Of a stretch of 64,000 nt of DNA, positions 7,635-32,297 are shown one piece after another. Made by a program: the position numbers and the translations under genes. The stretch's first letter is position 1; every line of letters begins with the position of its first letter. The notes beneath the pieces were generated by a model. The model was not told the DNA's origin, made no database searches, and was given only the letters and a program-made list of their open reading frames with translations. This DNA comes from a bacterium (GTDB lineage Bacteria; Lernaellota; Lernaellaia; JACKCT01), in NCBI GenBank assembly GCA_019912885.1, contig JAIOHV010000090.1, positions 1 to 64,000 of the forward strand, in the 5' to 3' direction.

Positions 7635-7687
7635 GCGCGGGAGTGTAGTGCCCGACGCGCGGCGTCTCAAGCGGAGCCAGGAAAGAG

Positions 7688-7722
7688 GATTGAGGATTGA
7701 GGATTGAGGATCGAGGATCGAG
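7688..7722 (+). repeat. Five tandem GATTGAG heptads
   Basis: GATTGAG three times, then GATCGAG twice, exactly in register with period 7, between the divergent prenyltransferase and lipoprotein genes. It is the same unit family as the arrays at 6610-6757. Confidence 0.75.
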
Positions 7723-7795
7723 GGCAACGGCGTGCATGACGTTGCATGCGCCAACGGGCACGCGGATAATCGAATCGACATCCGCGAGGTTCCCC

Positions 7796-8989: not shown

Positions 8990-9167
8990 ACGCGCGTTCA
9001 AAATCACGTCAACAGATACGGCGCCTGGCCGAATCGCTCGTGGTGGAGTGTGGCGATTATTTCAACCTTTACGACTTCGGTTGCGAAAAATTCGCGAATT
9101 GGGGATATTTGGAAGCGGCAGCTTTCCTCATGAGTTTTCAGCGCGGAACCGATACGTAAAAATCATT

Positions 9168-13580: not shown

Positions 13581-14738
13581 CTACGCGGTCTTTTTCTGCA
13601 TCGCCTCCACGGGGAAAAGCGGCACGACGCGATGGAAGAGGTAAAGGATCAGAAACGGCGCGGTGAAGATGATCGCCGCCGTGATGAGGCCTTCCTTTTC
13701 AAAGATGCCCGGAACATAGCTTGTGAAGCCGCGGCCGCTCTTGGAAAGCATCTGTCCGCCGATGATGACGTTCCAGCGCATCAGGATGACCTGAACGAGC
13801 AGCATCGACGCCGCGATGAAGACGACGGTGTTCGAGACCTTCAGCCTGAGCTTGAACAGGGCGTTCGCCGCCAGAAGGAAAAACGGAATCAGCGAGAAGA
13901 CGAGGTACTGCAGGACGATGTAAGACCAGAACAGCTTGTCGCCGATGAGCTTGCCGATGATCTCCCATTCCTCCGTCTGCTTGTAGGCGACCGACATGAC
14001 CTCGAGCAATTCGAGCGAGACGGCGATGATCATGAAGCCCCACAGGAACTTCCCCATCGTGCGCACGCACGGGCGGTCGAGCTTCCAGCCGTTGATGCGC
14101 GAGATCGTCATGTAGTGGAAAACGAGGATCGAGATGCCCGACACGATCGCCGAGAAGATGAAAATGATCAGCATGAGGGGCGTGGACCACCAGGGGTTCG
14201 CCTTCAGCGATCCGAACAGGAACCCGACGTAGCCGTGCAGCAGGCACGCCATGGGGATGCCGAGGCCCGCCAGAAACTTCGCCGCACGGTGATCGGCCGC
14301 CCGCGTCGCTTCGGTGGAACGCACATTGAAAAGCAGCGCCGCACGGCACAAGAGCGCGATTGGCCCGGTCCCCCTGGCGCGAGCGATCAGGTCCTCGCGT
14401 ACGACAAGCCAGACCTCGATCGCAACGACGATCAGGTAAGCGGTGTAGATGTATCCGAAACCGGCCATCGCGGACTGGAAGTTCGGCGTGATCATGATGT
14501 TGAACGCGCGCTCGGGATGCCCCAGGTGGATGAGCAGCGGCAGCGGCGCGAAGATCAGAAAGACGAACGCCGACGCGAGCGAGAAACGCGCGACCGGCTT
14601 CAACGCCTCCTGTCCGAACAGGTGGTAGAGCGACGAGACGATGAACGCACCCGCCACGAGGCCCGTGATGTAGGGATACAGAACGATCATCACCGACCAG
14701 GTGACGTTCAGATCGTTCGGGAAGACGAACTCGAACAT
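13581..14738 (-). CDS. NrfD/PsrC-family quinone-interacting membrane subunit
   Basis: 385 aa, about ten membrane helices. The N-terminus (FEFVFPNDLNVTWSVMIVLY) and the helix with HLGHPERAFNI match the NrfD/HmcC/PsrC family, the membrane anchor that exchanges electrons between quinol and a partner iron-sulfur protein. It is last in a four-gene operon: 18-site cytochrome, 9-haem cytochrome, FeS protein, NrfD. This order resembles the Hmc, Nrf and Geobacter Cbc NrfD-type complexes. Its start overlaps the FeS gene stop by one base. It lacks haem ligands of its own, as usual for the family. Confidence 0.9.
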   Translation of the reverse strand: MFEFVFPNDLNVTWSVMIVLYPYITGLVAGAFIVSSLYHLFGQEALKPVARFSLASAFVFLIFAPLPLLIHLGHPERAFNIMITPNFQSAMAGFGYIYTAYLIVVAIEVWLVVREDLIARARGTGPIALLCRAALLFNVRSTEATRAADHRAAKFLAGLGIPMACLLHGYVGFLFGSLKANPWWSTPLMLIIFIFSAIVSGISILVFHYMTISRINGWKLDRPCVRTMGKFLWGFMIIAVSLELLEVMSVAYKQTEEWEIIGKLIGDKLFWSYIVLQYLVFSLIPFFLLAANALFKLRLKVSNTVVFIAASMLLVQVILMRWNVIIGGQMLSKSGRGFTSYVPGIFEKEGLITAAIIFTAPFLILYLFHRVVPLFPVEAMQKKTA

Positions 14739-15526
14739 CAGACGACCTCCATGTCCAGGCCGATGTAGTAGCAGCGCGGATTCGTTCCGAGCTCCGGCTT
14801 GAGCAAGGTGTAGCGGCGTTCGCGAAGCACACGCGAGATTTCGCTATCCGGATCCTTGACGTTACCGAAGATCCGGGCGCCGACCGGGCACGATTGCACG
14901 CACGCCGGCAGCAAGCCCTTGGTGATGCGGTGGTAGCAGAGCGTGCATTTGTCGGCGGTGTGCGTTTCCTTGTTGATGAAACGCGTTGAATACGGGCAGG
15001 CTTGCACGCAATATCCGCAGCCAACGCAGTGTTCCGGATCCACGAGAACGACGCCGTCTTTCGTGCGGAACGTCGCGCCGACCGGGCAGACCTGAACGCA
15101 CACGGACGTTTCGCAGTGATTGCAGAGCTTCGGAACGAAAAACGCCTTGACCCGGCCGTCTTTCGCTTCCGCGGCGGGCGTGGCGTTCGAAAGGAACGTC
15201 GCGTTGTTTTCGTCCGAGGCGATGTCGATGCGCACGGCATGGTCTCCGCGGATTTCGTACCGCTCGACCCACGTGCGGAACTGGCTTTCGGGGACGTTGT
15301 TTTCCGCGCGACACGCGCGCATGCAGGCGCCGCAGCCGATGCACTTGGTGGTATCGACGGCGTACGCCCACTCGGGAATATCGTCCGCGCCGTCGGACGC
15401 GACCAGATCGGCGAGCGCGGGCGTGCACTTGATGACGAACAGACCGCCGAGGGCGACCTGCCCGCACCGGGCGAGAAACTCGCGCCGATCGGGCGCCGTC
15501 GGTTTTTTCTCATCCGGAGCCGTCAT
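14738..15526 (-). CDS. Tat-exported four-cluster ferredoxin subunit (HmcB/NrfC/DsrO-like)
   Basis: 262 aa from ATG 15526 (MTAPDEKKPTAPDRREF). A twin-arginine signal (RREFLARCGQVALGGL) directs the folded protein to the periplasmic side. Sixteen cysteines form four [4Fe-4S] sites: CIGCGACMRAC, CNHC...CVQVC, CVGCGYCVQACP, and CTLC...CVQSCP. This is the standard electron-relay subunit paired with NrfD proteins. The start overlaps the 9-haem cytochrome stop by 4 bases (ATGA). An upstream in-frame extension lacks the signal and is rejected. Confidence 0.9.
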   Translation of the reverse strand: MTAPDEKKPTAPDRREFLARCGQVALGGLFVIKCTPALADLVASDGADDIPEWAYAVDTTKCIGCGACMRACRAENNVPESQFRTWVERYEIRGDHAVRIDIASDENNATFLSNATPAAEAKDGRVKAFFVPKLCNHCETSVCVQVCPVGATFRTKDGVVLVDPEHCVGCGYCVQACPYSTRFINKETHTADKCTLCYHRITKGLLPACVQSCPVGARIFGNVKDPDSEISRVLRERRYTLLKPELGTNPRCYYIGLDMEVV

Positions 15527-16506
15527 GGCATCTCCTCCGGCGCCAGGGCATCCGTCCTCGTGCGCGTGAACTCGTGATGGAAGGCGTCGCGGTGGCAATC
15601 GGCGCAGGTCTTGTCTCCGACATCCTCGCCGCCGGACATTTCCTCACGGTGTTCCGGCCACGTGATGACCGGCTTGTTGTCGGATGTGACGAACGCGCGA
15701 TCCTCGTGGCACAGCAGGCAGAATCGCGGATCGGTGTGCTTGACGATGCGGCCGGCTTGCTCCGACTCGACGTAGAACTGGTGGCACGTACCGCACCCGA
15801 GTTCCGCGTGGGGGCGTTGCTCAAAGTCCGCCTGCACCTGTTCGTGGCAGTAGCCGCAGTCAAACACCGTGGGATGCGGCGTCGGCAGCGGCGCCGTTTC
15901 CTTCACCTCGTCGCGGTGGCAGTTCGCGCACTGATAGATCATCGGGTGCTTGCGCGATTCGGAAAGGCTCGTCTCAAGGAACAGCGGCTCATGCGGGCTA
16001 TGGCACGAGAAGCACGGCGTTTCGGGATCGTTGACCTCGCGCACGCGGTAATGCTCTTCCGGATCGACCTGGGGGAACGCCGCCGGGCGCGCGTAGAGGC
16101 GCTGATGGCAACCCAGGCAGGTCTCCTTCGATTTGGGGACATCGATGAACGGGCCGTCGCCCTCGAGCTCGCCGTCGCCCCAGAGCACGTGCTTGTTGGC
16201 CGGGCCGTGGCAATTTTCGCACTCGACATTTTGATGGACGTCTTTGGCGTGCTGCGCGACGATCTCGTCGTGGCACGTGTCGCAGCTTTGCTTGCCCTGA
16301 AACATCGGCTCGCGGAGGTTTTCATTGAGCGGAACCGCCGCGGCGCGATAGTGCCCGATGTCGCCGAACGTTTCGGGCACCATCAACCCCTTGAGCAAAA
16401 GCGCGACGGCGAGCGCACCGCCGATGACCGCCAAAAAACGGTAGATGTGCCGGTAATCGGCACGCGCGCCGTGGCCGGGCGGGTTCTTTTCCGCATCACT
16501 CGTCAT
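15523..16506 (-). CDS. Membrane-anchored nonahaem cytochrome c
   Basis: 327 aa from ATG 16506 (MTSDAEKNPPGHG), with GAGGGA about 9 bases upstream. A TTG 18 bases earlier is possible but less likely. One membrane helix (IYRFLAVIGGALAVALLLKGL) anchors a periplasmic domain with nine CXXCH haem sites: CDTCH, CENCH, CLGCH, CFSCH, CANCH, CGYCH, CGTCH, CLLCH, CADCH. It probably passes electrons between the FeS/NrfD subunits encoded next and the larger cytochrome encoded just upstream. The reading frame overlaps the end of that upstream gene by 11 bases. Confidence 0.88.
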   Translation of the reverse strand: MTSDAEKNPPGHGARADYRHIYRFLAVIGGALAVALLLKGLMVPETFGDIGHYRAAAVPLNENLREPMFQGKQSCDTCHDEIVAQHAKDVHQNVECENCHGPANKHVLWGDGELEGDGPFIDVPKSKETCLGCHQRLYARPAAFPQVDPEEHYRVREVNDPETPCFSCHSPHEPLFLETSLSESRKHPMIYQCANCHRDEVKETAPLPTPHPTVFDCGYCHEQVQADFEQRPHAELGCGTCHQFYVESEQAGRIVKHTDPRFCLLCHEDRAFVTSDNKPVITWPEHREEMSGGEDVGDKTCADCHRDAFHHEFTRTRTDALAPEEMP

Positions 16507-18649
16507 GAGGATTTCCCTCGGCAATGGTATCGATCGGCTTGGCCGGGCCGTGCTCGTCCTTGATCAGTTCGCGCGCGCGGTCAAACATCGTGTCGTTGGC
16601 TTTCAAAAGATTCATGGCGTGCGGCAGGTTGTGCTGGCCGCGCTCGCCCTCGATGAGCTCGTTGTTGGACTCGATGCGAAGGAGGAGGTTCGCGAGTTTG
16701 GTGATGTTCGCGCCGTTCGCCTTTCGGATATCCACGTCCTTGCGCAACTGTTCGAGCTTCGGTTTCTGCCCGGCGAGGCCCTTCCGGATCGACTGCGTCC
16801 ACTCGGCCGCCTTCTTGTCGTAGCCTTCCTCGTGACATTCGACGCACGTCGCGAGAATGACCTCGGATGTCGTCTCCGAGCCCTCGGCGATCTGCGTGTG
16901 GCAGTTGACGCACTCGAGCTGCGCGTTCATCTCGTCGGGCTCGCTTTTCGCGCCGACGCCCGCCGTCCCCGCGACCAGGCCCGCGATGTCCTGGTGGCAG
17001 TCGGCGCAGGTCACCTTGCCCTGCCCTTCACCGTGGTGGCAGTCGGCGCAGTTGGTGAAGTGGTTCTCGCCGTGCTTGTCCATGCCGCCGTGGCATTCCG
17101 TGCAGGCAAAGCCCATCTCGTCGATATGCGTCTTGTGCGGATAGTTCACGCTGCCGAGCGTCACCTTTCGCGTGCTCATCTCGCTGTGGCACAGGTTCGT
17201 GCACGTCATCTCGAACGGTTGCACCTTCTCGGGCTCGTAATCCTCGATCAGCAGCTCCCTGGCCTGCTCGCCCATGACGTTCGCGGCCTCGAGGAGCTTC
17301 AGCGCATACTCCATGTTGTGGTGACCGCGGCCGACGCGGACCAGGCGAATGTTGTGCGCCGCGTCGCCGATGAGCGCCGCCGCCTTCTCGTATGTCCGAA
17401 TTGAAACCTTTTTCTTGGCATCCAGCAGGGCTTTTTCGGTCGCGGAGAGACGCTCGGCCGCCGCGTTCTCCTGCGTGCGCATGATGTCCTGCCAGTGATG
17501 GAGCATGTCGGCGTAACCTTCGCCGTGGCACTTGTCGCAGGCCGCGCCCATCGAGAGATAGGCGACATCCGTGGCGAGCGTCCCGTATTTGCCGGTCGAC
17601 GATTTCACGTGGCAGGACGCGCAATCGACGTTCGCCCGATACATCTTGGAGGGCATCTCCGGCACGCCCACGCCGCCGACGCCGCGATACAACTCGCGCG
17701 GGCCGAAATGCTGCTGGTCCGCATGGCAGACGGTGCAATTTTCGCCGAAATGTTCGCTTGTCGGGTTGCGAACGATCTCGTGCTCGATGCGGCTATGGCA
17801 TCGCCAGCACTCGACCTTGTGATCGGTCACGTGGTTCTTGTGGTAGGTCTCGGAGGTGTACTGCGTCGTAACGATTTCGCGCAGCGTTTTTTCGCGTTCG
17901 GAATGGCATTCGACGCAGCGGTCGTAGTCCACCTCGCCCTGGCCCGCGACGATATCGACGTGACAGGTGCGGCAGTCCGACCCTTCGTCGAAATAGCGGC
18001 CGTGTTCGAACATGCGGCCGTTGGTCTGAATCTGCATCGGCACTTCGGTGTGGCAGGTGCGGCAATCGGACAGGACGGGATCGCGCTTGCCGTTCTCGTC
18101 GGCCTTGAAGTGGCAGATGAAACAATCGCGCGGATCGACGGTGAGATGCTCGCCCTGGACGATCTGCCCGTGGCAGGTGACGCACCGCAGCTTCTTGCCG
18201 CGGCGCATCTCGTTCAAGTGGTTCGGATGCGAAAAGGTGACGCCCTGGAACTCCTTTTCGCCGGTGAGCTGATCGGTGGGATGGCATTCCTTGCAGCTCG
18301 CGTCAGGGATTTCCGCGTGATATTTCCCGCGCGCCTTGCCGGTGATGAAGATGACCAGGTGCGCCTGGCCGTCGGTGATCTTGCCCTTGAGGTAGTTGTA
18401 AAAGCCCGGCTCGTAGTGGCACTGGGCGCAATTGACGGTGTTGTGCGAGCTGGCACGCCAGGACTCGATGTACGGCGTCATGTTGTGGCAGGACCCGCAA
18501 AACTCGGGCTTGCTTGTGACCTCGAGCATGATGCCGCTGAACGCGAAAAACGCGGCCGCCGCGATCACGAAGACGACCGCGATGCGCCGCGGCGTCCATT
18601 TCCTCGTTTTTGGGGTAGGCGAGACCAGTTCGTCCTGATTGTTTTCCAC
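16496..18649 (-). CDS. Giant multihaem cytochrome c with NapC-type anchor (17 CXXCH plus one CXXXCH)
   Basis: 717 aa from GTG 18649 (VENNQDELVSPTPK); AAGGAG lies 8 bases upstream, and an upstream GTG in the same frame would begin before the promoter. A membrane helix (RIAVVFVIAAAAFFAFSGI) is followed by a NapC/NirT-like start (CGSCHNMTPYIESW). I count 17 CXXCH sites and one CTNLCH with three intervening residues. Two haem-free helical segments (about 395-480 and 630-705) share an HN..YALKLLEAAN..... pattern, which suggests internal duplication. First gene of the NrfD operon; it likely takes electrons from the quinone module to periplasmic carriers. Confidence 0.85.
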   Translation of the reverse strand: MENNQDELVSPTPKTRKWTPRRIAVVFVIAAAAFFAFSGIMLEVTSKPEFCGSCHNMTPYIESWRASSHNTVNCAQCHYEPGFYNYLKGKITDGQAHLVIFITGKARGKYHAEIPDASCKECHPTDQLTGEKEFQGVTFSHPNHLNEMRRGKKLRCVTCHGQIVQGEHLTVDPRDCFICHFKADENGKRDPVLSDCRTCHTEVPMQIQTNGRMFEHGRYFDEGSDCRTCHVDIVAGQGEVDYDRCVECHSEREKTLREIVTTQYTSETYHKNHVTDHKVECWRCHSRIEHEIVRNPTSEHFGENCTVCHADQQHFGPRELYRGVGGVGVPEMPSKMYRANVDCASCHVKSSTGKYGTLATDVAYLSMGAACDKCHGEGYADMLHHWQDIMRTQENAAAERLSATEKALLDAKKKVSIRTYEKAAALIGDAAHNIRLVRVGRGHHNMEYALKLLEAANVMGEQARELLIEDYEPEKVQPFEMTCTNLCHSEMSTRKVTLGSVNYPHKTHIDEMGFACTECHGGMDKHGENHFTNCADCHHGEGQGKVTCADCHQDIAGLVAGTAGVGAKSEPDEMNAQLECVNCHTQIAEGSETTSEVILATCVECHEEGYDKKAAEWTQSIRKGLAGQKPKLEQLRKDVDIRKANGANITKLANLLLRIESNNELIEGERGQHNLPHAMNLLKANDTMFDRARELIKDEHGPAKPIDTIAEGNPHDE

Positions 18650-18669
18650 GGCGTGCGCTCCTTCGTTTT

Positions 18670-18691
18670 GGGAAAGAGCAATTCGGATGCC
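18670..18691 (-). promoter_or_regulatory. Sigma-54 type promoter of the NrfD/cytochrome operon
   Basis: Read on the minus strand: GGCAT-CCGAAT-TGCTC-TTTCCC. GG and GC are exactly ten bases apart, as in the -24/-12 consensus TGGCAC-N5-TTGCW. Transcription would start near 18666, just before the AAGGAG of the 18-site cytochrome gene. The core and the following TTTCCC are shared with the promoters at 19031 and 29758. Confidence 0.6.
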
Positions 18692-19030
18692 GACGCGGTG
18701 CGTCACGTGACCCGGATCAAATCGAGGGATTTGTTCAACAAACGCGCCCCCTTTGCGCGCGCGTGCTATCGAAAACCTTACGAAATTCGCGAAGTTTGAG
18801 GCTACGTCGTTCTCGGATTGAGAACATCGAGTCTCTGTTTTCTCGATTCAAGAACGGCGCGAAAGCGCCTCGTCCGGGGAGATTGGAAATGGCTACGCCC
18901 GAAACTCCCCGGCGGCGTCTTAACGCAGTGCGTCAAAATGGCCGCGATTCCGGTAAGTTGCGTGCGTCGCGCGCCGCGTGAATCCGCGGTTCCAATAAAA
19001 TGAACGGTCGTTCAGAAACGGCGGCGTATC

Positions 19031-19087: not shown

Positions 19088-21145
19088 ATGTACTCCTTGA
19101 AAAAAATTTGCCCGGTCCGGTTTGCATCGCTTGCGCTCGGCATCTTTCTCATAACCGCGGCGCCGGCCGCCCTTGCGGCGACAAACGCCGATTGCCTCGC
19201 CTGCCACGACGGCACGCTTGACGGCATGTCGCCGGATGACCTCGCGGAAATGGTTGTTCCGGCGCCGGAGGGCTTTCATCCCGCGCCCAAGCGGCACGCG
19301 CGGACCGAAAAGCCGTCGCTGACGATCGACGCGAAAAAATTCGCGGCGAGCATCCACGGCGAGTTCGCGTGCACCGATTGCCACGCGGACGTGGGCGAGC
19401 TTCCCCATGCGGCGAAGCTCGACGCGGTCGGTTGCGCCGCGTGCCATGAAGACGCGAGCGCGAAGTATGAAAACAGCGTCCACGCGGTTTCGGTCGCCAA
19501 CGGCAACGGCGACAGCAAGGCCGCGTTGTGCGCGGACTGCCACGGCACGCATGACATCCGGCCGATGGCGGACCCGGAAAACCGCGTTGCCAAGTCGAAC
19601 GTGGCGGCGACGTGCGCCAAGTGCCACCACGAGGACGTGGAGCTGGCGGGCCGCCGAGGCGGCAACGGGCACGACGTGGTGACGATGTATCGCGAGAGCA
19701 TCCACGCCAAGGCCATCATACGCGGCAATCTCAACGCGGCGACGTGCAACGACTGCCACCGCAGCCACGACCTGCGCCCGATGGTCGATCCGGATTCGTC
19801 CATCTACAAGATCAACGTTTCCACGACGTGCGGGCAGTGCCACAAGTCGGAAGCGGCGCAATACGACACGTCGGTTCACGGCGTCGCGCTTGCACGCGGC
19901 ATCTTCGAATCGCCGACGTGCAACGACTGCCACGGCGAGCACACCGTGGTGCCGACGGACGATCCGCTCAGCCGCGTCGCGCCGTCCAGCGTCGCGCAAA
20001 AATCGTGCAACGCCTGCCATGATCGCGAGCGGCTGACGCAGGATTTCGGCATCGCCGGCGGACGGATTCAGTCGTATTCCGACAGCTTCCACGGCCTGGC
20101 CGCCGGGCTTGGCGACGCGACGGTCGCGAACTGCGCGTCGTGCCACGGCATCCACGACATTTATCCGAGCTCCGACGCGCGAAGCACGATCCATCCGGAA
20201 AACATCCAGCAGACCTGCGGATCGTGCCATCCGAAGTTCGATGCCTCGGGCGTGGTCGGCATGGTGCACGGCGATCCGGAAGGCAGCATCGGCGCGCGCA
20301 TCAACGACATCGTCTGGTGGGTCTATCTCTGGCTCATCATCGGCGTCATCGGCTTCATGATCGTGCACAACTTCCTCGACTGGCGCCGGCGCGTGATGCA
20401 CCTTTTGCGGCGCCGCCCGAAACCGGCGTTCTACACCCGCCTCAACCGCATGGAGCGCGGGATGCACTACCTGCTGATCGCCAGTTTCTTCGGCCTGGCT
20501 TTCACCGGATTCATGCTCGTCTTCAAGGTGCCGGTTCCGTTCGTCTCCGGCGAGATGGCCGAGGGCGTGCGCTCGGACGCGCATCGCGTCGCGGCGGTCG
20601 GATTCATGGCCTGGGCCCTCTGGCATGCCTGGTACCTCATCGGCACCAAACGCGGCCGCGGCTGGATGATCGACATGATCCCGAAGATGAAAGACGCGCT
20701 GGACCTGAAAAAAGCGCTGTCGTACAGCGTCGGACGGGCGAAGGACAAGCCGAGGTTCGCTCGGTTCGGGTACCCGGAAAAGATGGAGTACCTCGCGCTG
20801 CTCTGGGGGTCGCTCATCATGATCGCGACGGGCCTGTTCCTGTGGTTCAAGGATTGGGTCTCGATCTGGTTCCCGTTCTGGTCGTTTGACGTGGCCACGA
20901 CGATCCACCTGATGGAAGCGATTCTCGCGACGCTCGCGATCATCATCTGGCATTTCTACTTCGTCATCTTCCGCGCGGACGTCGCCCCCATGGCGACGTG
21001 GTGGCTCGGAAACGGCGGCATGACCGAAGACGAGTTGAAGCATCATTTCCCGCTCGAATACGAGCGTGTGATTCGCGAACGCGCCGCCGCCGAGGCCGCG
21101 AAATCCAAGGCTCCGCCCAAACCGGACGTGACGCCTTCGGAGTAG
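19088..21145 (+). CDS. Undecahaem cytochrome c fused to a dihaem b-type membrane domain (CbcL-like)
   Basis: 685 aa. A signal peptide ending ALA is followed by a periplasmic region with eleven CXXCH sites (CLACH, CTDCH, CAACH, CADCH, CAKCH, CNDCH, CGQCH, CNDCH, CNACH, CASCH, CGSCH). From about residue 400 there are membrane helices with conserved His (RGMHYLL, SDAHRVAA, LWHAWYL, TTIHLME, IIWHFYF), as in FdnI/HydC-type cytochromes b. The architecture is that of Geobacter CbcL, an inner-membrane menaquinol oxidase used in respiration to low-potential extracellular acceptors. It is a single-gene unit with its own sigma-54 type promoter and terminator. Confidence 0.85.
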   Translation: MYSLKKICPVRFASLALGIFLITAAPAALAATNADCLACHDGTLDGMSPDDLAEMVVPAPEGFHPAPKRHARTEKPSLTIDAKKFAASIHGEFACTDCHADVGELPHAAKLDAVGCAACHEDASAKYENSVHAVSVANGNGDSKAALCADCHGTHDIRPMADPENRVAKSNVAATCAKCHHEDVELAGRRGGNGHDVVTMYRESIHAKAIIRGNLNAATCNDCHRSHDLRPMVDPDSSIYKINVSTTCGQCHKSEAAQYDTSVHGVALARGIFESPTCNDCHGEHTVVPTDDPLSRVAPSSVAQKSCNACHDRERLTQDFGIAGGRIQSYSDSFHGLAAGLGDATVANCASCHGIHDIYPSSDARSTIHPENIQQTCGSCHPKFDASGVVGMVHGDPEGSIGARINDIVWWVYLWLIIGVIGFMIVHNFLDWRRRVMHLLRRRPKPAFYTRLNRMERGMHYLLIASFFGLAFTGFMLVFKVPVPFVSGEMAEGVRSDAHRVAAVGFMAWALWHAWYLIGTKRGRGWMIDMIPKMKDALDLKKALSYSVGRAKDKPRFARFGYPEKMEYLALLWGSLIMIATGLFLWFKDWVSIWFPFWSFDVATTIHLMEAILATLAIIIWHFYFVIFRADVAPMATWWLGNGGMTEDELKHHFPLEYERVIRERAAAEAAKSKAPPKPDVTPSE

Positions 21146-23434: not shown

Positions 23435-23446
23435 ATTGGATCTCCG

Positions 23447-24598
23447 TCAAAACCAGCGCCGCAGCCATTCCTTTTCGAACGCCACCTTGCCCCAGTGCCA
23501 CCGCCGTCCGGGCGCGCGCATCTTTATGACCGGCACGGGTTCGGCGTAGAAGTTGCCCTTGCCAAAACCCGCACGGCCGTTTCCGACCTCGATAAAACAT
23601 TCGCCGTGCCCTTCAAACGCGGCGGGCTTTCCGGCACCCGTGATGATCCGCGCAATGTTGCGGGCCACGACCGACGCCTGCGCGTGCGCGAAAACGCCGG
23701 CCTTGGGCAGCGGTTTGCCGAGCATCAGCGGGATGCCGGTCACGTCGCCGATCGCGTAAACGCGGGGGAATCGCGTTTCCATCGTGTGGCGGTCCACCGG
23801 AATCCATCCGTTTTCCGCCACGAGCCCCGCGTCGCGGACGACCTTCGGCGCGCGGATCGGCGGAACATGGACAAGCAGATCGAATTCCGCCGTCGCGCCG
23901 TTTGAGAACGATATTCGCCGCGCGGCGGCGTCCACGCTCGTGACCTGATGCTCGGGGTGATAGAAGACGCCTTTCGACTCGACCATCCCGCGGACCAGGG
24001 CGGACACCTCCGGACCCGCGACGCCCATCGGGCCGGGCTCCGCGGTGTAAAGGTCAATCGATACGTTGTCGCGCACGCCGCGCCGCCGGCAGTCGTGTTC
24101 GAGGAGCATGGCGGCCTCATAGGGCGCGGCCGGGCATTTGTACGCGGGCGCCGCGGTCATCACGACAAGCCGCCCTGCGCGAAAATCCCGGAGCGCGTTG
24201 CGAAGGCTCTCGGCGCCGGCCAGCGTGCAGAAATTGTGACCGGCGTCGGCAAGGCCAGGAATCAATTCGGGCGCGAAGTCGGCGCCGAGAGCGATAACGA
24301 TGTGGTCCGCGTCTAACGTGCTTTCGCCGACCCAGACGCGACGGTTCGCGGGTTCAATGGACGCGATATCGCCGCGCACGACCTCGACGCCCCGCGTTTT
24401 CAGGCGATCGATCGGGCGCGAAATCTGCTCGGCGCGCCGATCGCCCGTCATCAGCCAGAGAAGCGACGGAGCGAAGACGTGGCGCTCCTCGCGCTCGACC
24501 AAAACGACGCGGTGGCCGGCGGGCAGCTTTTTGCGAAGTTCCACCGCGGTGACGACGCCGCCCACGCCGCCTCCGAGCACAAGGATGGTCTGGTTCAT
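23447..24598 (-). CDS. Sulfide:quinone oxidoreductase-like flavoprotein
   Basis: 383 aa from ATG 24598 (MNQTILVLGGGVGGVVTA), with GGAGAAG just upstream. The FAD-binding GxGxxG is LGGGVGG; the second nucleotide-binding region is GRLVVMTAAPAYKCPAAPYE, whose CPAAPYE element is typical of SQR/flavocytochrome c sulfide dehydrogenase flavoproteins. The FAD ribityl motif is VYAIGDVTGI. It lies between the DsrE gene and the cysteine desulfurase. SQRs oxidise sulfide to persulfide or polysulfide and reduce quinone at the membrane. Which cysteines are redox-active cannot be decided here, so the exact substrate is inferred. Confidence 0.85.
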   Translation of the reverse strand: MNQTILVLGGGVGGVVTAVELRKKLPAGHRVVLVEREERHVFAPSLLWLMTGDRRAEQISRPIDRLKTRGVEVVRGDIASIEPANRRVWVGESTLDADHIVIALGADFAPELIPGLADAGHNFCTLAGAESLRNALRDFRAGRLVVMTAAPAYKCPAAPYEAAMLLEHDCRRRGVRDNVSIDLYTAEPGPMGVAGPEVSALVRGMVESKGVFYHPEHQVTSVDAAARRISFSNGATAEFDLLVHVPPIRAPKVVRDAGLVAENGWIPVDRHTMETRFPRVYAIGDVTGIPLMLGKPLPKAGVFAHAQASVVARNIARIITGAGKPAAFEGHGECFIEVGNGRAGFGKGNFYAEPVPVIKMRAPGRRWHWGKVAFEKEWLRRWF

Positions 24599-24633
24599 GG
24601 CTTCTCCTCCCATGTCTCCACCAAAGCGATCGT

Positions 24634-24987
24634 TCAAAACACCAGCACGCGATTGGCCGACTGCGTCCAATCGGTCAGCTCATCGAGCGTGCTTCGCCTT
24701 GCGCCGTCCGCGAGCTCGCCTTCGGTCAGGCCACGCGCGTCCATGCACGTCCCGCAGACGCCGATCTGGCCGCCGTGCCGCGTGACCGCCTTCAGCATCA
24801 GTTCGACGTTATAGAAGCCCGCCGGCACCTTCTGCCCGGATTTGGCGCAACTGGCCGCGTCGCCCATGAGAAAGACGCGGACCAACTCGCCGTCGCGCCG
24901 CGCAAGCGAACCCGCGAGTCTCAGGCCGTTGTAGCTGCGTTCGGTTCCGTACGGGGGATCGTTCAGGATGATCAGTGTCGCCGTCAT
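24634..24987 (-). CDS. DsrE-family sulfur-transfer protein
   Basis: 117 aa. The start TATLIILNDPPYGTERSYNGLRLA is typical of DsrE/YchN proteins. Conserved cysteines occur in GDAASCAKSGQ and in VCGTCMDARG, the probable persulfide carrier site. A GGGAGGTG ribosome site precedes the ATG, which overlaps the regulator stop (ATGA). Members relay sulfane sulfur between enzymes in the cytoplasm. With the rhodanese, SQR-like protein and desulfurase in the same operon, a role in sulfane sulfur trafficking is likely. Confidence 0.9.
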   Translation of the reverse strand: MTATLIILNDPPYGTERSYNGLRLAGSLARRDGELVRVFLMGDAASCAKSGQKVPAGFYNVELMLKAVTRHGGQIGVCGTCMDARGLTEGELADGARRSTLDELTDWTQSANRVLVF

Positions 24988-25658
24988 TCGTTCACCTCCC
25001 GGCTTACGGGGAATCCAAGGGATTGCCAGTCAAGAACGCCGTCTTCCATGCGCAACGCGCGATATCCGCTCGCCCGCAACAGCGCGACGGCCTCGACGGA
25101 AAGGACGCAATAGGGGCCGCGGCAATACGCGACGATCTCGCGGTCGCGCGGCAATTCGGCAAGGCGCCGCGTAAGTTCCCCGACGGGAATCGATAGCGCG
25201 CCCGGGATGTGGCCGGCCCGGTATTCTTCCGCGGGGCGAACGTCGAGTACGGAAACCTCGCCGCGCCGCACGCGCTCGATCAGCGCGCGGCGATCGACGG
25301 GTTCCATCACCCCGCGATCTTCCAGGAATTGCCGGGTGACATCGCGGATTTCGAGGAGCCTCGCGTCCGCGAGTTCGCGAAAAGCGCGGAAAAATTCGCC
25401 CACCTCGTCGCCGGCGAGCCGGTAGGTGACGTGTACGCCCTGCTTTTCGGTCTCGACGAGCCGCGCCCGCCGCAACACCTGAAGGTGGTGGGAGGTATTG
25501 GCTACCGATTGACCGGCGTGCCGGGAGAGGTCTTCCACCGAACGCGGCCCCTGGCAAAGCAGATCGAGCAATTCCAGGCGTGGACCGCTCGCGATCGCCT
25601 TTCCGAGGCGCGCGAGCTGGTCGAAAACCGTATTCTTGAATTCGCGGGCCGTCGGCAT
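24984..25658 (-). CDS. ArsR-type regulator fused to a rhodanese domain
   Basis: 224 aa. Residues about 1-100 are an ArsR winged helix (GPRLELLDLLCQGPRSVEDLS, SVANTSHHLQVLRRARLVE). Residues about 115-220 are a rhodanese (VSVLDVRPAEEYRAGHIPGA) with the active-site loop CRGPYC, the persulfide-forming Cys. Such fusions sense reactive sulfur or use it in signalling. It is the first gene of the sulfur operon, and a perfect palindrome lies 13 bases upstream of its ATG, so it probably represses its own operon until persulfide reacts with it. Confidence 0.92.
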   Translation of the reverse strand: MPTAREFKNTVFDQLARLGKAIASGPRLELLDLLCQGPRSVEDLSRHAGQSVANTSHHLQVLRRARLVETEKQGVHVTYRLAGDEVGEFFRAFRELADARLLEIRDVTRQFLEDRGVMEPVDRRALIERVRRGEVSVLDVRPAEEYRAGHIPGALSIPVGELTRRLAELPRDREIVAYCRGPYCVLSVEAVALLRASGYRALRMEDGVLDWQSLGFPVSREVNE

Positions 25659-25694: not shown

Positions 25695-25801
25695 TTAGCG
25701 GAGCGACGTTGCCTTGTCAAGCGGCCTGGACCGCTAACGTGGTGAGAAGGAGGCCGCAAGAGCGGTTGCGATCGCCATGTGGGAGACGGTCAAAAAAAAC
25801 A

Positions 25802-25823
25802 GCCCGCGCGATCAGGCGCGGGC
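25802..25823 (-). terminator. Bidirectional terminator at the end of the outer-membrane conduit operon
   Basis: GCCCGCGC-GATCAG-GCGCGGGC, a perfect 8-bp stem. On the minus strand it is followed closely by T8 (25792-25799 complement), and on the plus strand by T7. It lies 27 bases past the stop of the tetrahaem cytochrome gene. Confidence 0.85.
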
Positions 25824-25849
25824 CGTCTATTTTTTTCCGGGCGTTTCGG

Positions 25850-26242
25850 TCAGCTATTGTGGCACTTCGTGCAGTCGGCCGGTTTCGGGAAGACGGGGCC
25901 CTTTCCCTGTTCCTTGTGGCATTTCACGCAACCATCATGGAAGGCCTTTTTCGCCGGCATGGCTTTTTTGCCCTGCCAGGCGTTTTCCTTGCCGTCTTTC
26001 GTGTGGCACTCGGAGCACTTCGTGCCCGTGCCCTTGGCGTCGGCATGGTGGCAGGCCTGGCAATCCTTCTTCGCGTACTCCAGGTGCTTCGGGTGATCGA
26101 ACGTCACCGGCGGCTTGGTCGCCTGGCCGTCGATCGTAATCTTCACCGGCTTGTCCGGCGGTGTGTCGGAAGCCGCGATCACGATGCTGACGAGCGCCAG
26201 CGCCGCGACGGACACAATGAAGAGCGTCACAAACTTTTTCAC
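25850..26242 (-). CDS. Periplasmic tetrahaem cytochrome c3 family protein
   Basis: 130 aa. A signal peptide (MKKFVTLFIVSVAALALVSI) precedes a small Lys-rich domain with four CXXCH sites (CQACH, CSECH, CVKCH, CTKCH) and the His-rich start VTFDHPKHLEYAKKDC typical of cytochromes c3/c7. It is a likely soluble shuttle between inner-membrane quinol oxidases and the outer-membrane conduit encoded in the same operon. It is the last gene before the terminator. A gap of 75 bases to the preceding gene, with its own GGAAGGTG site, allows independent translation. Confidence 0.9.
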   Translation of the reverse strand: MKKFVTLFIVSVAALALVSIVIAASDTPPDKPVKITIDGQATKPPVTFDHPKHLEYAKKDCQACHHADAKGTGTKCSECHTKDGKENAWQGKKAMPAKKAFHDGCVKCHKEQGKGPVFPKPADCTKCHNS

Positions 26243-26317
26243 TGAACACCTTCCTTCCGGGCGGGTTGAGGTTCCATGTTTCGCGGCTCGCGGCGGCCGC
26301 CCTGGCGCCGCGTTCCG

Positions 26318-27373
26318 TCAAAGTCCCGGGTAGGCGTGACAATCATTGCAGGCGACGCCGGTATCACCGCCTCGCAGTTGTTCGCCGTGACAACGCGTGG
26401 CGCAGGAGTCGTCGCCGTTTGCGAGAACCCGGTCGCCATGCCCGTCGTTCGTCCAGTTTGTATCGTGAGGATACAAATCGTGGCATGTGAAGCAAGAGAC
26501 GTTTGTGTTTTCGCCCGCGAAGTCCTGCCCGTGGCAAGCCGCGCAGGAGGCCGGCCCGCCCGCCTCGATGACATCCGCGCCGTGCTCGGTCGGATTCGCA
26601 TAGCCGCCCGGATGCGGGTAGGTCGTGTGGCACTGTTGGCACGACACGTCGCTGCCGCCGCCGTTCAGATCCTCGCCGTGACAGTTCGTCGCGCAGCCGC
26701 CCTTTCCTTCGTCGAGGACGTGACGGCCGTGTTCGTCCTTTTCCGACCAGTCATCCGCGTGCGGGTAGAGCGCGTGGCACTGCGTGCACGAAACGTCCGC
26801 CATCCCGCCGCCAAGCTGTTCGCCGTGGCAGGCCGTGGCGCAGTTTTCGTCGCGGCCGTTGTTCGCGTCGTACACGCCGTGCGCGTCGGGCGCGGCCCAG
26901 CCGGTTTCGTGCGGATAGAGATCGTGGCACGTATAACACGAGACGCCCGAGTCGCCACCTTCGTAGTCCTCGCCGTGGCAGGCCGTGGCGCACGTTTCGC
27001 CCCCGGTCGGAAGCGCGGTGAGGCCGTGGTTTTCGATCTCCTCCCACGCGTCGGCGTGCGGGTAGGTCTTGTGGCAGACAAAACACGACACCTGCGACCA
27101 ACCGCCTTCCCAGTCGTGCCCATGACACTCGGCGCAGTCCTCGGTCCCGGTCTCGATCGCGGCCAGGCCGTGGACCTTCGGGTTGCTCCAGCCGGCGGGG
27201 TGCGGATAGGCGTCGCCCGAGATCGCGTGATCGTCGGCCATGTCCGTGGGCGCGTCGGCGTTCGGCGACGCGCAACCCCATTCGGCCGCGAACGCGACCG
27301 CCGCGAACAGGAGGAACAGGAGGCTTGCCCGGCGGGGCCGGCGTTTCGTGCGTTTTTGCGTGTTGCGTTTCAT
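26318..27373 (-). CDS. Exported 12-site multihaem cytochrome of six dihaem modules, probable lipoprotein
   Basis: 351 aa. A basic N-terminus and hydrophobic segment end at AAEWGC, a plausible though non-ideal lipobox. The mature part is six near-identical modules of about 50 residues. Each has a first site (CAECH, CATACH, CATACH, CATNCH, CAACH, CATRCH) and then VSC..CH..YPH with a regular CXXCH. Thus eight sites are CXXCH and four are CXXXCH. Sequence between sites is Gly/Asp-rich (GEDYEGGDSGVSC). It follows the barrel and 12-haem genes and is the best candidate for the outer, surface-facing cytochrome of the conduit. Confidence 0.82.
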   Translation of the reverse strand: MKRNTQKRTKRRPRRASLLFLLFAAVAFAAEWGCASPNADAPTDMADDHAISGDAYPHPAGWSNPKVHGLAAIETGTEDCAECHGHDWEGGWSQVSCFVCHKTYPHADAWEEIENHGLTALPTGGETCATACHGEDYEGGDSGVSCYTCHDLYPHETGWAAPDAHGVYDANNGRDENCATACHGEQLGGGMADVSCTQCHALYPHADDWSEKDEHGRHVLDEGKGGCATNCHGEDLNGGGSDVSCQQCHTTYPHPGGYANPTEHGADVIEAGGPASCAACHGQDFAGENTNVSCFTCHDLYPHDTNWTNDGHGDRVLANGDDSCATRCHGEQLRGGDTGVACNDCHAYPGL

Positions 27374-27383
27374 CGCAAGCCCC

Positions 27384-28433
27384 CTATCGCCCGTGACATT
27401 CGGCGCACATGCGATCCGAGCGATCCATGCGCCCCGGATCCCAGTTTTTGGGGTGCGGATTGAGGCCGAGCGACTCGCGATGGCAGGTGCGGCAGTCGCC
27501 CGGGCCGCCGCGATCGTGGCAGCTTGCGCAGTTCACGATTTCGGTACGCGCCTTTTTCCCGTGGAAGTTCGGCGAGCCCTCGCTCATCCACCCGGCGGGG
27601 TGCTTGTAGTGTGTTTTGTCGCCGCGAGCGCCGACGCCGCTTTGCGCGTGGCAGCTATTGCACTCGCTGATGCCGTGGCACTTCATGCAGTCGCTTGCGT
27701 CGACCTTGGCCTCGAAGCGATGCGTCGTCTGCCAGTCGCCCCGGTGGATGAGGCCCGCGCGGACCTTCTCCGGGTATTTCAGCGACGGTTTCAAATCTTC
27801 CTTCTTGCTGTGACAGTCCAGGCAATACGACTCGGTGTGGCATTGCGCGCACGATACGGCGGACTTGCGCGCGTATTCGGGATGCCGCGAGAGGAAGTCG
27901 TTCGCGTGCTCGAAGGACGCGAGTTTTTTCAGGCCCATCGGCTCCATGCCGATGTGGCACTTACGGCACAGCATTTTGTCGAGGTCTTCGGCGTGGCAGT
28001 CCTTGCAGGAGGCGTGATTCGGCATCTTGATCGCCGTCGGCGTTTCGCCCGCGTGGCAGGCCGAGCATTCGAGATCGACCTCCATATGTGCCGCGTGCGA
28101 AAAGAGGATGTCGCGCCGTTCGCTTTTTCGTTCGACGAATCCCACGCTTTTGGCGTCGTCGTGGCATTCGGCGCAGACGGCCGTGCTGACGGGCTTTGTC
28201 ATTACGCCGCTGTCCGCGGCGATGCCGGTGTGGCAGTTCGCGCATTCCATGCCGAAGTCGGGGACGAGATGGATCCCGTGCACCTTTTCGGGCGCGACGC
28301 CCTTGTCAGCGGATTCACCAGTTTTCGCGGTCAGCGCGAGTTGCAGGATCAGGATCACCACGAACGCGATGAACAGGAAGCGGCGGTCTCTTCGGGCGCG
28401 CGACCGGGCGCGCTCTTTGGTGAGAGCGTTCAT
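27384..28433 (-). CDS. Periplasmic dodecahaem cytochrome c of the conduit
   Basis: 349 aa from ATG 28433 (MNALTKERARSRARRDRR). A single N-terminal hydrophobic helix (FLFIAFVVILILQLALTA) acts as a signal or anchor. Twelve CXXCH sites follow: CANCH, CAECH, CSACH, CKDCH, CRKCH, CAQCH, CLDCH, CMKCH, CNSCH, CASCH, CRTCH, CAECH. Its start overlaps the barrel gene stop by 4 bases (ATGA), so the two products are made in step, as expected for a cytochrome that plugs into a porin (compare OmaB with OmbB in Geobacter). Which side it faces is inferred. Confidence 0.87.
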   Translation of the reverse strand: MNALTKERARSRARRDRRFLFIAFVVILILQLALTAKTGESADKGVAPEKVHGIHLVPDFGMECANCHTGIAADSGVMTKPVSTAVCAECHDDAKSVGFVERKSERRDILFSHAAHMEVDLECSACHAGETPTAIKMPNHASCKDCHAEDLDKMLCRKCHIGMEPMGLKKLASFEHANDFLSRHPEYARKSAVSCAQCHTESYCLDCHSKKEDLKPSLKYPEKVRAGLIHRGDWQTTHRFEAKVDASDCMKCHGISECNSCHAQSGVGARGDKTHYKHPAGWMSEGSPNFHGKKARTEIVNCASCHDRGGPGDCRTCHRESLGLNPHPKNWDPGRMDRSDRMCAECHGR

Positions 28434-29707
28434 ATCGGCCGCTCCATGTTGAAGCCAAGGCGAAGCAGGCCCTGGTACTCGGCGTCGTAATACGGGCCGG
28501 ACCGGAAGATGCTCGTGGCCTGGACGTCCCAATGGGACCAGAAGCGCCAGCCAAGCGACAGATCGCCGTCAAACGCCGTGTCGACTTCGTAGATCGACCG
28601 GTCCAGGAACGCGGCCGTGGCGTTGGCCGCGACGTGCCAGTCGGTCAGGAACTTTTGGTATACGTAGGCGCGGGCCTCGTCGTATCCGTTGTCGTCGCGA
28701 TCCAGCCGGGCGCCGCGCAGGCCGAAAACGTTGTCACGGGTCTCGCCCCAGAGAATCTCGACCCCCCCGCCGGCGCGAGTCGCATCATCGGCTTCGTCGT
28801 ACACATATTGGCCGACGGACCCGATGACGCGCACGCGCCGTGCGAGCAGGTAGGATAGTTCTCCGTCGATTTCGTTGATGGTTTCGGCGGAGAAGACGGT
28901 GAAGTAGCTCGTCCGGCCCAGAAACGCGGTCGGGACGATGTATCGATAAAACCCCGAGAGCCGAAGATCGGTCAGGGGGTAGACGTTCAGGTTGCCCGTG
29001 GCGTCGTAAAGCTCTTCGAAGATGAGGTCATACGACGCGTGTCCGATCAGGTCGACGTGCGGATCCGGCGCGATGTAGAGGTCCGCGCCGAGGGCGTCCC
29101 GGTCCGCCTCGCCTTCCTCGTAGAACGCATGGTAGGACGCACCGATCTCAAGGTAGTTCCGCCACGCATACGAGGCGCGTCCGCCGTAGCCGTAATCTTC
29201 GTCGCGCAGGCCGATCTTCGAGAAAACGGGGATACCGCCGAAGGCGCGGAGCGCGAATCCGCCGAATGGGCGGCAAACGAGGTCGATGCCGTCGATGTTC
29301 TCCGCCGTGACGCCGGCGACCACGAAGTGCCGGCCCGCGTACACGGTCAGCAGATCTTCGAAGGCGTCCCAGCGAACGTAAAAATAGGTCAGATCGGCGT
29401 CGCCGGGACCTTCTTGATCCGGATTTTCGGGCTCGGCCAAGTCTCCGCGCGCCCAGCCGCCGAAATGCATCGTCAGGCCGGTTGACCCGATACTCTGGGC
29501 GTGAATGTCCGCGAATTCGTATAGGGCGATGTGGCGGTCGCCGTCGCCGTCGTAATACGACTGGAAGGCGTAGGGGATTGTCCGGGAGGAGCCGTAATAC
29601 TCGACCGCATCCGCCGGCGCGGGACACAGGGCACCCAGGGCGACAAGGACGGCGAACGAGACCAGAGCCTGCCGTATCCGCCGTTTTTTCGCCTGGAATC
29701 GCTGCAT
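28430..29707 (-). CDS. Outer-membrane beta-barrel protein of a porin-cytochrome conduit
   Basis: 425 aa from ATG 29707 (MQRFQAKKRRIRQAL), with GAGGAG upstream. A signal peptide ends at ADA before VEYYGSS. The mature protein is rich in alternating aromatic and polar residues in strand-turn-strand patterns (LTYFYVRWDAFEDLLTVYAG, LRLSGFYRYI) with acidic loops, consistent with a barrel of around 18-22 strands. It ends RLGFNMERPI without the usual terminal Phe. It contains no haem motif. Being first in an operon with three multihaem cytochromes, it is the probable sheath of a transmembrane electron conduit. Confidence 0.78.
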   Translation of the reverse strand: MQRFQAKKRRIRQALVSFAVLVALGALCPAPADAVEYYGSSRTIPYAFQSYYDGDGDRHIALYEFADIHAQSIGSTGLTMHFGGWARGDLAEPENPDQEGPGDADLTYFYVRWDAFEDLLTVYAGRHFVVAGVTAENIDGIDLVCRPFGGFALRAFGGIPVFSKIGLRDEDYGYGGRASYAWRNYLEIGASYHAFYEEGEADRDALGADLYIAPDPHVDLIGHASYDLIFEELYDATGNLNVYPLTDLRLSGFYRYIVPTAFLGRTSYFTVFSAETINEIDGELSYLLARRVRVIGSVGQYVYDEADDATRAGGGVEILWGETRDNVFGLRGARLDRDDNGYDEARAYVYQKFLTDWHVAANATAAFLDRSIYEVDTAFDGDLSLGWRFWSHWDVQATSIFRSGPYYDAEYQGLLRLGFNMERPI

Positions 29708-30158: not shown

Positions 30159-32297
30159 ATGGCGATTCGAGGTAGCAGCCGCCCGGAACGCGTCCTTTTC
30201 ATCGGGCTTGCCGTCGCGGCCGCGGTGTTCGGAACGGCCGCCGGCGCCCTGGGCGCGACTTTCAATGTGGACTCGGTGCTCGACGCGGTGGACGCCAATC
30301 CCGGCGACGGCGTGTGCGCGACGGCGGTCAACGTATGCAGCCTGCGCGCGGCGATCATGGAGGCGAACGCGCTCGACCACAGTTCCAACACGATCAACGT
30401 GCCGGCGGGCACCTACAACCTTTCGATCGCGCCCAGCGGCGAGACGGATGCGAACGGCGACCTCGACATCCTCGTCCCGCTCGACCTCAAAGGCGCCGGC
30501 GCGAGCCTGACGGTGATCGATCCGCAGGGTGCAAGCCGCGCAATCCAGATCAAGGACCCGGCCGACGAGGACTTCATTGTCAACATCCTCGACGTGACGA
30601 TCCAGAACGGGGATCAGAGCCACGGCGGGGGTCTGGCGAACGACGGCGGCTTCGTACAGATGTACCGCGTGATCGTGCGCGACAGCTTCGCGTTCAGCCA
30701 GGGCGGCGGCATCATCAACACGAACGACGCGCGGCTCGAGATGCACGACTGCGAGGTACGCGACAACACCACGGCGGCGCGCGGCGGCGGCATCGACAAC
30801 GTGGGCAGCAGCGTGCTGAAGCTCTACCGCACGACGATCGCGGGCAATACCGCGAACCAGGGCGGCGGCATCCGCAGCATCGACGGCGTGTTACGGCTCG
30901 AGGACAGCACCGTCAGCGGCAACTTCGCCGAGTTCTCCGGCGGCGGCATCCTGCAAAGCGGTGTGACGCACCTCGCGAGTTCGACGATCGCCAACAATAC
31001 GGCCGACCAGGACCTGGGCGGCGGCGTCCGTAATCTGGACGGGACGGTGCAAGCCTGGAATACCATCGTCGCGACCAACGCGACCAACACTTTCGGCCCC
31101 GGCGGGCATGACTGCGTCGGCGATTTCACGGCCGATTTCGCGACGATTCTCGGAAGCGGCGACGGCTGCAACGTCCTTGGCGGCATCTTCGCGATGATCG
31201 GCGACGACAACGACCCGATCGACCCGATGATCGGTTCGCTCGGCTCAAACGGCGGCCCGACGCGCACGCACAATCTGCTGGCGGGCAGCCCGGCCATCGA
31301 CGCGGGTACGACCGCCGTGCCGCCGGACATTTTTGCTTGCAACGCAACCGACCAGCGCGGCGTTCCCCGTCCGCTGGACGGCGATGTGAACGGCATCCCG
31401 CGCTGCGACATCGGCTCATTCGAATACCCGCCGCCGGACGACGGCGACGGTGTGAACGGGTTTCTGGAGGATCAGGCGCCCAACGACGGCGACGGCAACG
31501 GCGACGGCATTCCCGACAAGTGGCAGCCGCACGTGGCTTCGATTCCCAACGACGTGACCGGCGAAACCGTAACCATCGAGGCGCCCGAAGGCGCCCTTCT
31601 CGAAGATGTCGATACGATGCCGAATCCCTCCCCCGGCGACATGCCGCCGGGCGCCGAATTTCCGGTGGGATTTTTCACCTTCACCATCGTCGGCGTCTCG
31701 CCCGCCCTGGTGAACGTATGGATGCCGGCGGGCGTCATGGTGGACGCTTGGTTCAAATACGGTCCGACGCCGTTTGATCCGTTCGATCACTGGTACGATT
31801 TCAACTTCGACGGCGCGACCGGCGTCTTCCTGACGTTTCCCGATCACCTGACGCTGCGTTTCGTGGACGGCTTCCGGGGCGATCACGACCTGGCGGTCAA
31901 TGGCGAGATCTTCGAGCCGGGCGGGCCGTCGTTCGTGCTGCCGTTGCCGGTGGATATCAAGCCCGGCAACGCGCAAAACAAAATCAATCCCACAAGCAAC
32001 GGCACGATCGACGTCGCGCTGCTTTCGACCGAATCTTACGACGCGCCTGCGCGCACCGACGCCGAATCGCTGACGTTCGGACATATGGGCGACGAGGATT
32101 CGCTTGTCCACGAAGGCAACGGCGACGCGAAATGCAAAGTGAAGGACGCGAACGGCGATGGCCTCGCCGACCTGGTCTGCAAATTTTCCGTCGAGGATGC
32201 CGCGTTCGTCGCGGGAGATACCGAGGGCGTCCTGAAGGGAGAGACGACAAACGGATTCGCGTTCCAGGGATCGGACACCGTGCAGACGGTCCCGTGA
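30159..32297 (+). CDS. Secreted beta-helix surface protein with CSLREA and choice-of-anchor domains
   Basis: 712 aa. The signal peptide ends at AGALGA. It is followed by a CSLREA-type region (DGVCATAVNVCSLRAAIMEA), then a right-handed parallel beta-helix (about 120-330) with repeated turns such as GGGIDN, GGGIRS and GGGILQS. Next come a choice-of-anchor Q-like segment (LAGSPAIDAG), a choice-of-anchor U-like domain (PVGFFTFTIVGVSPALVNV, WFKYGPTPFDPFDHWYDF) and a C-terminal VDIKPGNAQNKINPTSNGTI domain. Such proteins are exported adhesins or polysaccharide-binding proteins. No catalytic residues of pectate lyases are evident. Confidence 0.8.
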   Translation: MAIRGSSRPERVLFIGLAVAAAVFGTAAGALGATFNVDSVLDAVDANPGDGVCATAVNVCSLRAAIMEANALDHSSNTINVPAGTYNLSIAPSGETDANGDLDILVPLDLKGAGASLTVIDPQGASRAIQIKDPADEDFIVNILDVTIQNGDQSHGGGLANDGGFVQMYRVIVRDSFAFSQGGGIINTNDARLEMHDCEVRDNTTAARGGGIDNVGSSVLKLYRTTIAGNTANQGGGIRSIDGVLRLEDSTVSGNFAEFSGGGILQSGVTHLASSTIANNTADQDLGGGVRNLDGTVQAWNTIVATNATNTFGPGGHDCVGDFTADFATILGSGDGCNVLGGIFAMIGDDNDPIDPMIGSLGSNGGPTRTHNLLAGSPAIDAGTTAVPPDIFACNATDQRGVPRPLDGDVNGIPRCDIGSFEYPPPDDGDGVNGFLEDQAPNDGDGNGDGIPDKWQPHVASIPNDVTGETVTIEAPEGALLEDVDTMPNPSPGDMPPGAEFPVGFFTFTIVGVSPALVNVWMPAGVMVDAWFKYGPTPFDPFDHWYDFNFDGATGVFLTFPDHLTLRFVDGFRGDHDLAVNGEIFEPGGPSFVLPLPVDIKPGNAQNKINPTSNGTIDVALLSTESYDAPARTDAESLTFGHMGDEDSLVHEGNGDAKCKVKDANGDGLADLVCKFSVEDAAFVAGDTEGVLKGETTNGFAFQGSDTVQTVP

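Follow-up and report, generated by a model that had tools for sequence, protein, structure and literature searches.

A probable porin-cytochrome conduit operon of the Pcc/Ext family in Candidatus Lernaellota

The window analyzed here, a stretch of 64,000 nucleotides, belongs to a draft genome assembly of 4.8 Mb in 230 contigs that is 99% complete. At 25850-29707 on its minus strand, four genes running in the same direction code successively for a barrel, a 12-haem cytochrome, a Cys-anchored cytochrome built from dihaem modules and a tetrahaem cytochrome c3. The features of this operon are the following:

28430..29707, minus strand: outer-membrane beta-barrel of the Pcc/Ext family, 425 aa (22 modelled strands, profile comparison, blastp)
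27384..28433, minus strand: 12-haem c-type cytochrome, 349 aa, predicted periplasmic or barrel-inserted (12 CXXCH, alignment of relatives)
27648..27995 (coordinates approximate), minus strand: pentahaem bis-His core of the 12-haem protein, approximately residues 147-262 (invariant columns, hhalign)
26318..27373, minus strand: predicted lipoprotein cytochrome, 351 aa, with six dihaem modules of 47-50 aa (module parse, orthologs, conserved Cys)
25850..26242, minus strand: tetrahaem cytochrome c3, 130 aa, GTG start, predicted periplasmic shuttle (PF02085, E=1.1e-15)
25797..25828, minus strand: intrinsic terminator 3' of the operon (13-pair stem, then T-run)

The first-pass annotation had described a complete operon of a barrel, a 12-haem cytochrome, a 12-site lipoprotein and a c3-type shuttle, in this order and with overlapping genes. 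Indeed, all four open reading frames are found at this place on the minus strand in the order given, and a strong intrinsic terminator follows the c3 gene. The overlaps, on the other hand, are reduced to a single one: the stop codon of the barrel gene and the ATG of the 12-haem gene share 4 bases, and the later gaps measure 10 and 75 bases. Both large cytochromes have about 26 aa per haem, and every cytochrome of the operon possesses at least one spare (non-motif) histidine per haem, in keeping with bis-His electron-transfer haems. The fourth gene encodes a class III cytochrome c (c3), scoring 58.3 bits against PF02085 (cut-off 22.9) and containing four CXXCH motifs and four further histidines; its orthologs in two relatives of the same class (L013 and L014) are 42% and 55% identical. 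Divergent from the operon, a gene at 30159-32297 on the plus strand codes for a 712-aa secreted protein without Pfam match that contains CSLREAI-like repeats.

The barrel carries a signal peptide, and its AlphaFold model (pLDDT 78.6) comprises 22 strands and lacks a plug domain. The fold search retrieved generic outer-membrane barrels alone (FimD, TonB receptors), with TM-scores of at most 0.51, and by sequence no family was found in Pfam, NCBIfam or the PDB; the curated libraries thus agree with the earlier remark that the barrel lacks a recognised family signature. Membership of the MtrB/PioB family was ruled out, PF11854 being absent from the barrel at E<=1 and from the whole genome at E<=0.001. 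A profile of the barrel family was built from nine relatives. It gave no match at E<=10 among 177,635 PDB sequences, and therefore does not behave as a generic barrel detector, and it matches 63 genomes in a set of 386 that belong mostly to different families. A multihaem gene adjoins the barrel in 28 of the 30 best loci, the remaining two being short contig ends, and a cytochrome matching the profile of the 12-haem protein is present at 17 of 20 weaker barrel loci. The lack of PDB matches together with these near-constant multihaem neighbours argues for a specific family of conduit barrels, which is found in 116 of the 141 genomes of the taxonomic order to which genome G314 belongs.

The barrel had also been regarded as being of an unknown kind, a view that the comparisons do not support: it is a full-length homologue of the Pcc/Ext-type barrels of Geobacterales. 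A profile restricted to Lernaellota sequences matches an ExtE-like group at E=1.7e-51, an ExtB-like group at 3.5e-25 and an OmbB-like group at 3.3e-14, where the labels denote gene layout (ExtE-like: barrel, then 5-haem lipoprotein, then repeat lipoprotein; ExtB-like: 11-haem, barrel, 5-haem, 5-haem; OmbB-like: barrel, 8-haem, large lipoprotein) and the comparison covers groups so labelled. Two Geobacterales genomes were compared, one with two conduit clusters that we take to be Geotalea (G.) uraniireducens Rf4 and a second that we take to be G. bemidjiensis Bem. In blastp with single-sequence queries against a database of three sequences only, the barrel matches two barrels of the presumed Rf4 genome (E=9.8e-30, full length, and 1.1e-12) and that of the presumed Bem genome (2.4e-31), and homologues of the window cytochrome (6.9e-24, 2.6e-18) and lipoprotein (1.4e-15, 2e-9) follow the Geobacterales barrels in the same order; the presumed Rf4 barrel matched at 1.1e-12 adjoins an OmaB-like cytochrome. 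For a further genome matched by the barrel family profile, presumably that of D. thermolithotrophum, the link is weak with the Lernaellota-only barrel profile (E=0.0013, probability 19%) and good for the cytochrome beside the barrel (4.6e-13). D. thermolithotrophum is among the species with pcc clusters (Shi et al. 2014, PMC4245776).

The 12-haem protein contains 12 CXXCH motifs and 13 further histidines and has no lipobox. Its structural model is poor (pLDDT 66.8) and too weak for a fold search, and scanning the genome collection with the cytochrome profile yielded one relative. An alignment of 30 barrel-associated cytochromes reveals a shared core whose five CXXCH motifs, together with five further histidines, do not vary, the invariant distal histidines of the window protein being H147, H176, H184, H230 and H238. 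With hhalign, this pentahaem core matches 5-haem conduit proteins at E=5.7e-29 and 8-haem conduit proteins at 4.1e-20. Ext-like pentahaem lipoproteins consist of the core alone, OmaB-like octahaem proteins possess in addition a C-terminal three-haem part, and the 12-haem protein combines both with an N-terminal c7-like part; its C-terminal 8-haem part aligns with the 8-9-haem proteins beside OmbB-like barrels (E=2.6e-18 in the three-sequence blastp, 4.1e-20 with hhalign). The idea that the whole 12-haem protein corresponds to ExtG was dropped, since only its core matches pentahaem ExtF/ExtC-like proteins and since it is the dihaem lipoprotein that matches the third gene of Ext-like clusters. 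Ext and OmcB components have been said to share no homology (PMC6148476). Contrary to this statement, our comparisons suggest, at the level of sequence profiles, that the Ext-like and OmaB-like conduit cytochromes share a pentahaem core. One barrel family and one pentahaem core would then represent a shared, testable plan underlying conduits reported as non-homologous (PMC6148476).

In the predicted lipoprotein, 12 haem sites (8 CX2CH and 4 CX3CH) are arranged in six modules, accompanied by 15 further histidines. The module consensus is approximately YPH..W...HG..C(A)xxCHG.D..GG.S.VSC..CH, so that every module contributes a pair of haem sites along with a pair of candidate distal histidines. 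CX3-4CH sites are able to bind haem and are common in Pcc outer-membrane cytochromes (Shi et al., PMC4245776). The lipobox of the window protein is weak (EWG-C), the Cys is invariant, and the lipoboxes of the orthologs are canonical (LAAC, VSGC). Module number varies among the orthologs: L016 has 1, L017 has 2, L015 has 4 and L013 has 11, the frameshifted L014 has about 7, and the window has 6. Relatives of the lipoprotein, which include the downstream lipoproteins of Ext-like clusters, occur in 31 of the 386 genomes, and 20 of the 39 places concerned lie at most 5 kb from a barrel match; the two families co-occur in 21 genomes (hypergeometric P=1.6e-11, a value that ignores shared ancestry). 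A surface cytochrome of unusual dihaem modules had been proposed: the modules are indeed there, and this kind of protein is a recurrent partner of the barrel family elsewhere. Given this recurrence and the homology of the barrel to those of Geobacterales Pcc/Ext, the proposal of a new conduit type is not supported.

Other multihaem proteins were encountered in the retrieved loci. L163 encodes at 6763-9915 a solitary predicted lipoprotein of 1050 aa, a distant relative with 40 CXXCH motifs in about 18-20 dihaem units, and no detectable conduit barrel adjoins it. A dihaem lipoprotein of about 14 modules is found in L164 (672-8021) near 7-, 8- and 9-haem cytochromes, where an unassigned 449-aa open reading frame may represent a barrel that escaped the profile. 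In L015, the gene at 2943-4259, immediately upstream of the barrel gene, encodes a 16-haem Cys-anchored cytochrome whose repeats are unlike the dihaem modules. We put forward, tentatively, that the surface cytochrome could be a length-tunable single-chain haem wire made longer or shorter by the gain or loss of modules of 47-50 residues (1, 2, 4, 6, about 7 and 11 in Lernaellota; at least 18, carrying about 40 haems, in a relative that is unlinked). A pentahaem plug core would be universal and retained within the barrel in Pcc, Ext and related conduits, which published work regards as mutually unrelated. The variable module number offers a natural series for testing wire length against reach and rate.

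The lineage of the window is FEN-1099, a candidate phylum that goes by the names Ca. Lernaellota/Podoxiota (PMC13248872). In the search results and passages that made up the literature searched, we found no report of extracellular electron transfer in FEN-1099/Ca. Lernaellota, in line with the earlier remark that the lineage is not known for such respiration. Each of the five other class members in which the barrel was detected (L013-L017) carries a 12/13-haem gene next to it, the barrels being about 28-60% identical, and a lipoprotein of the same dihaem-module kind follows in each. The retention of this pair in these five genomes argues that the operon did not arise by chance. The barrel tree places the five full-length sequences from Lernaellota (window, L013, L015-L017) in a single group with support 99/96, the inner order of which fits taxonomic kinship. 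The most economical interpretation is vertical inheritance within the phylum; judging from this tree, the conduit looks ancestral in Lernaellota. A plasmid search found nothing. In L014 (genome G002), the barrel and dihaem lipoprotein genes, at about 6000-9500, are split by frameshifts that reflect either assembly error or decay. With these results, the genomic evidence for extracellular electron transfer via cytochromes now also covers Ca. Lernaellota.

Based on homology and layout, the product of the operon is very likely a porin-cytochrome conduit of the Pcc/Ext family that carries electrons across the outer membrane. A porin-cytochrome conduit had been proposed from the start, and the proposal is now strongly supported by the homology of the barrel, its multihaem neighbours, the invariant core and the co-location of the lipoprotein. 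We infer that the proteins form a complex in which the barrel would span the outer membrane and sheathe the 12-haem cytochrome, the pentahaem core lying probably within the barrel and the N-terminal c7-like haems reaching into the periplasm. A short haem chain capping the conduit on its outer side would be provided by the Cys-anchored dihaem-module cytochrome; the tetrahaem c3 would ferry electrons between the conduit and quinone enzymes of the inner membrane, for example those encoded at 13.6-21.1 kb of the window:

13581..18706, minus strand: NrfD, 4Fe-4S subunit, multihaem cytochrome and NapC/NrfH-multihaem fusion, in a separate operon (Pfam/NCBIfam)
19088..21145, plus strand: CbcL-like fusion of multihaem cytochrome and cytochrome b561 (PF01292 and c7/c3 domains)

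These genes for quinone-linked enzymes are located 4-16 kb from the conduit operon, and those at 13581..18706 probably provide the inner-membrane quinol/quinone side associated with the conduit. A homologue of the NapC/NrfH-multihaem fusion (55% identity) lies directly behind the c3 gene in L013, and in L021 a single run of genes comprises those for the barrel, CbcL-like, NrfH-like, c3 and NrfD proteins. Geobacter uses Pcc/Ext-type conduits for metal respiration; by analogy, a net flow outward, that is anaerobic respiration of an extracellular acceptor, appears likelier than a flow inward. The same conduit might instead supply the quinone pool with electrons taken up from outside the cell (donated by Fe(II), a syntrophic partner or a cathode), which we consider unlikely but worth retaining: the nearby CbcL-like, NrfD and NrfH-type partners would suit it, and conduits and CbcL/MtoC-type partners work both ways (PMC6295460), whereas Geobacter Pcc/Ext, the closest characterised relatives, work outward.

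A conduit capped on the outside by the lipoprotein is also preferred over an arrangement in which the latter faces the periplasm or stands outside the complex and the membrane is crossed by the 12-haem protein alone, an arrangement that has been suggested for Anaeromyxobacter Pcc clusters devoid of a surface cytochrome. The 12-13-haem partners are large enough for this, the related loci L020 and L067 consist of the barrel and a 13-haem gene only, and both the single module of the L016 ortholog and the weak lipobox of the window protein point in the same direction. We nevertheless judge this arrangement improbable, as the Cys is invariant and the lipoboxes of the orthologs are canonical, the lipoprotein recurrently lies near the barrel, and downstream cytochromes with atypical motifs (Gura_1837, GSU_2724) are read as outer-membrane proteins (PMC4245776).

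Directly downstream of the conduit operon and on the same strand, the region 22286-25658 codes for an ArsR-rhodanese fusion, a DsrE-like protein, a type III SQR-like flavoprotein and a class V aminotransferase. A sulfide-to-conduit link via these genes is possible. That the complex would serve surface sulfur or metalloid redox (discharge of sulfide-derived electrons outside, or detoxification) and not general respiration is quite improbable, however, given that the terminator separates these genes from the conduit and that tblastn revealed no sulfur genes beside the conduit in the retrieved homologous loci; a conserved link to sulfur genes, unseen among these relatives, was dropped. Finally, an ordinary solute porin with cytochromes as chance neighbours would agree with the generic fold matches and the absence of a curated family but is highly improbable in view of the homology to conduit barrels and of a multihaem adjacency that is near-constant across many families. 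Neither of the refuting observations named in the first-pass annotation (a specific solute porin with too narrow a lumen, a periplasmic lipoprotein) was made, the barrel modelling with 22 strands and no plug domain. What stands out in this Pcc/Ext-family conduit is modest: the lineage in which it occurs, the pentahaem core that it shares with other conduits and the variation in module number.

Comparison with known systems places the operon within the following frame. MtrCAB and PioAB resemble it in their working principle, a barrel-sheathed multihaem wire, but the window has no PF11854 member. PCC3 (PMC5566968) also associates a repeat-built extracellular multihaem cytochrome with a porin; it is characterized, however, by a median of 34 and 21 haems and by a conserved gene for a five-helix inner-membrane protein, and was excluded because the window has 12 haems in each protein and no further gene in its terminator-bounded operon. 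Pcc of the Ignavibacterium/Anaeromyxobacter type (PMC4245776) has a second component of similar size, with 12-14 haems (large second components are likewise encoded in L114, with 14 haems, and L059, with 12), but branches apart from the window in the barrel tree, and several of its members have no adjoining surface cytochrome. With regard to OmbB-OmaB-OmcB (Pcc; PMC4245776), the barrel is homologous (pairwise E=1.1e-12 in the three-sequence blastp, to a barrel that is OmbB-like by layout) and the OmaB-like protein aligns with the C-terminal eight haems of the 12-haem protein, whereas the additional N-terminal haems are particular to the window and the layout of its surface cytochrome is unrelated to that of OmcB. 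The window thus has both an OmbB-homologous barrel and an adjacent OmaB-homologous cytochrome, as compared with the Geobacterales relatives, and the outer-membrane cytochrome of Pcc may have its counterpart in the predicted 12-site lipoprotein, with an invariant Cys, a weak lipobox in the window and good ones in the orthologs. ExtABCD (GSU2645-2642) shares the barrel and the pentahaem core, as seen in the ExtABCD-like layout of L055, but has upstream of the barrel a separate ExtA-like gene that the window lacks. The Geobacterales ExtEFG layout (GSU2726-2724; Gura_1837-type) has homologues of all three components, arranged in the same order, and its surface component likewise contains CHG..GG.S..C..CH dihaem units with atypical CX3-4CH motifs. 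ExtEFG proper was nevertheless excluded: its second component is a 5-haem lipoprotein, whereas that of the window is a 12-haem protein without lipobox of which only the core matches, and the window operon is further distinguished by its six near-regular modules and by the c3 shuttle that it contains.
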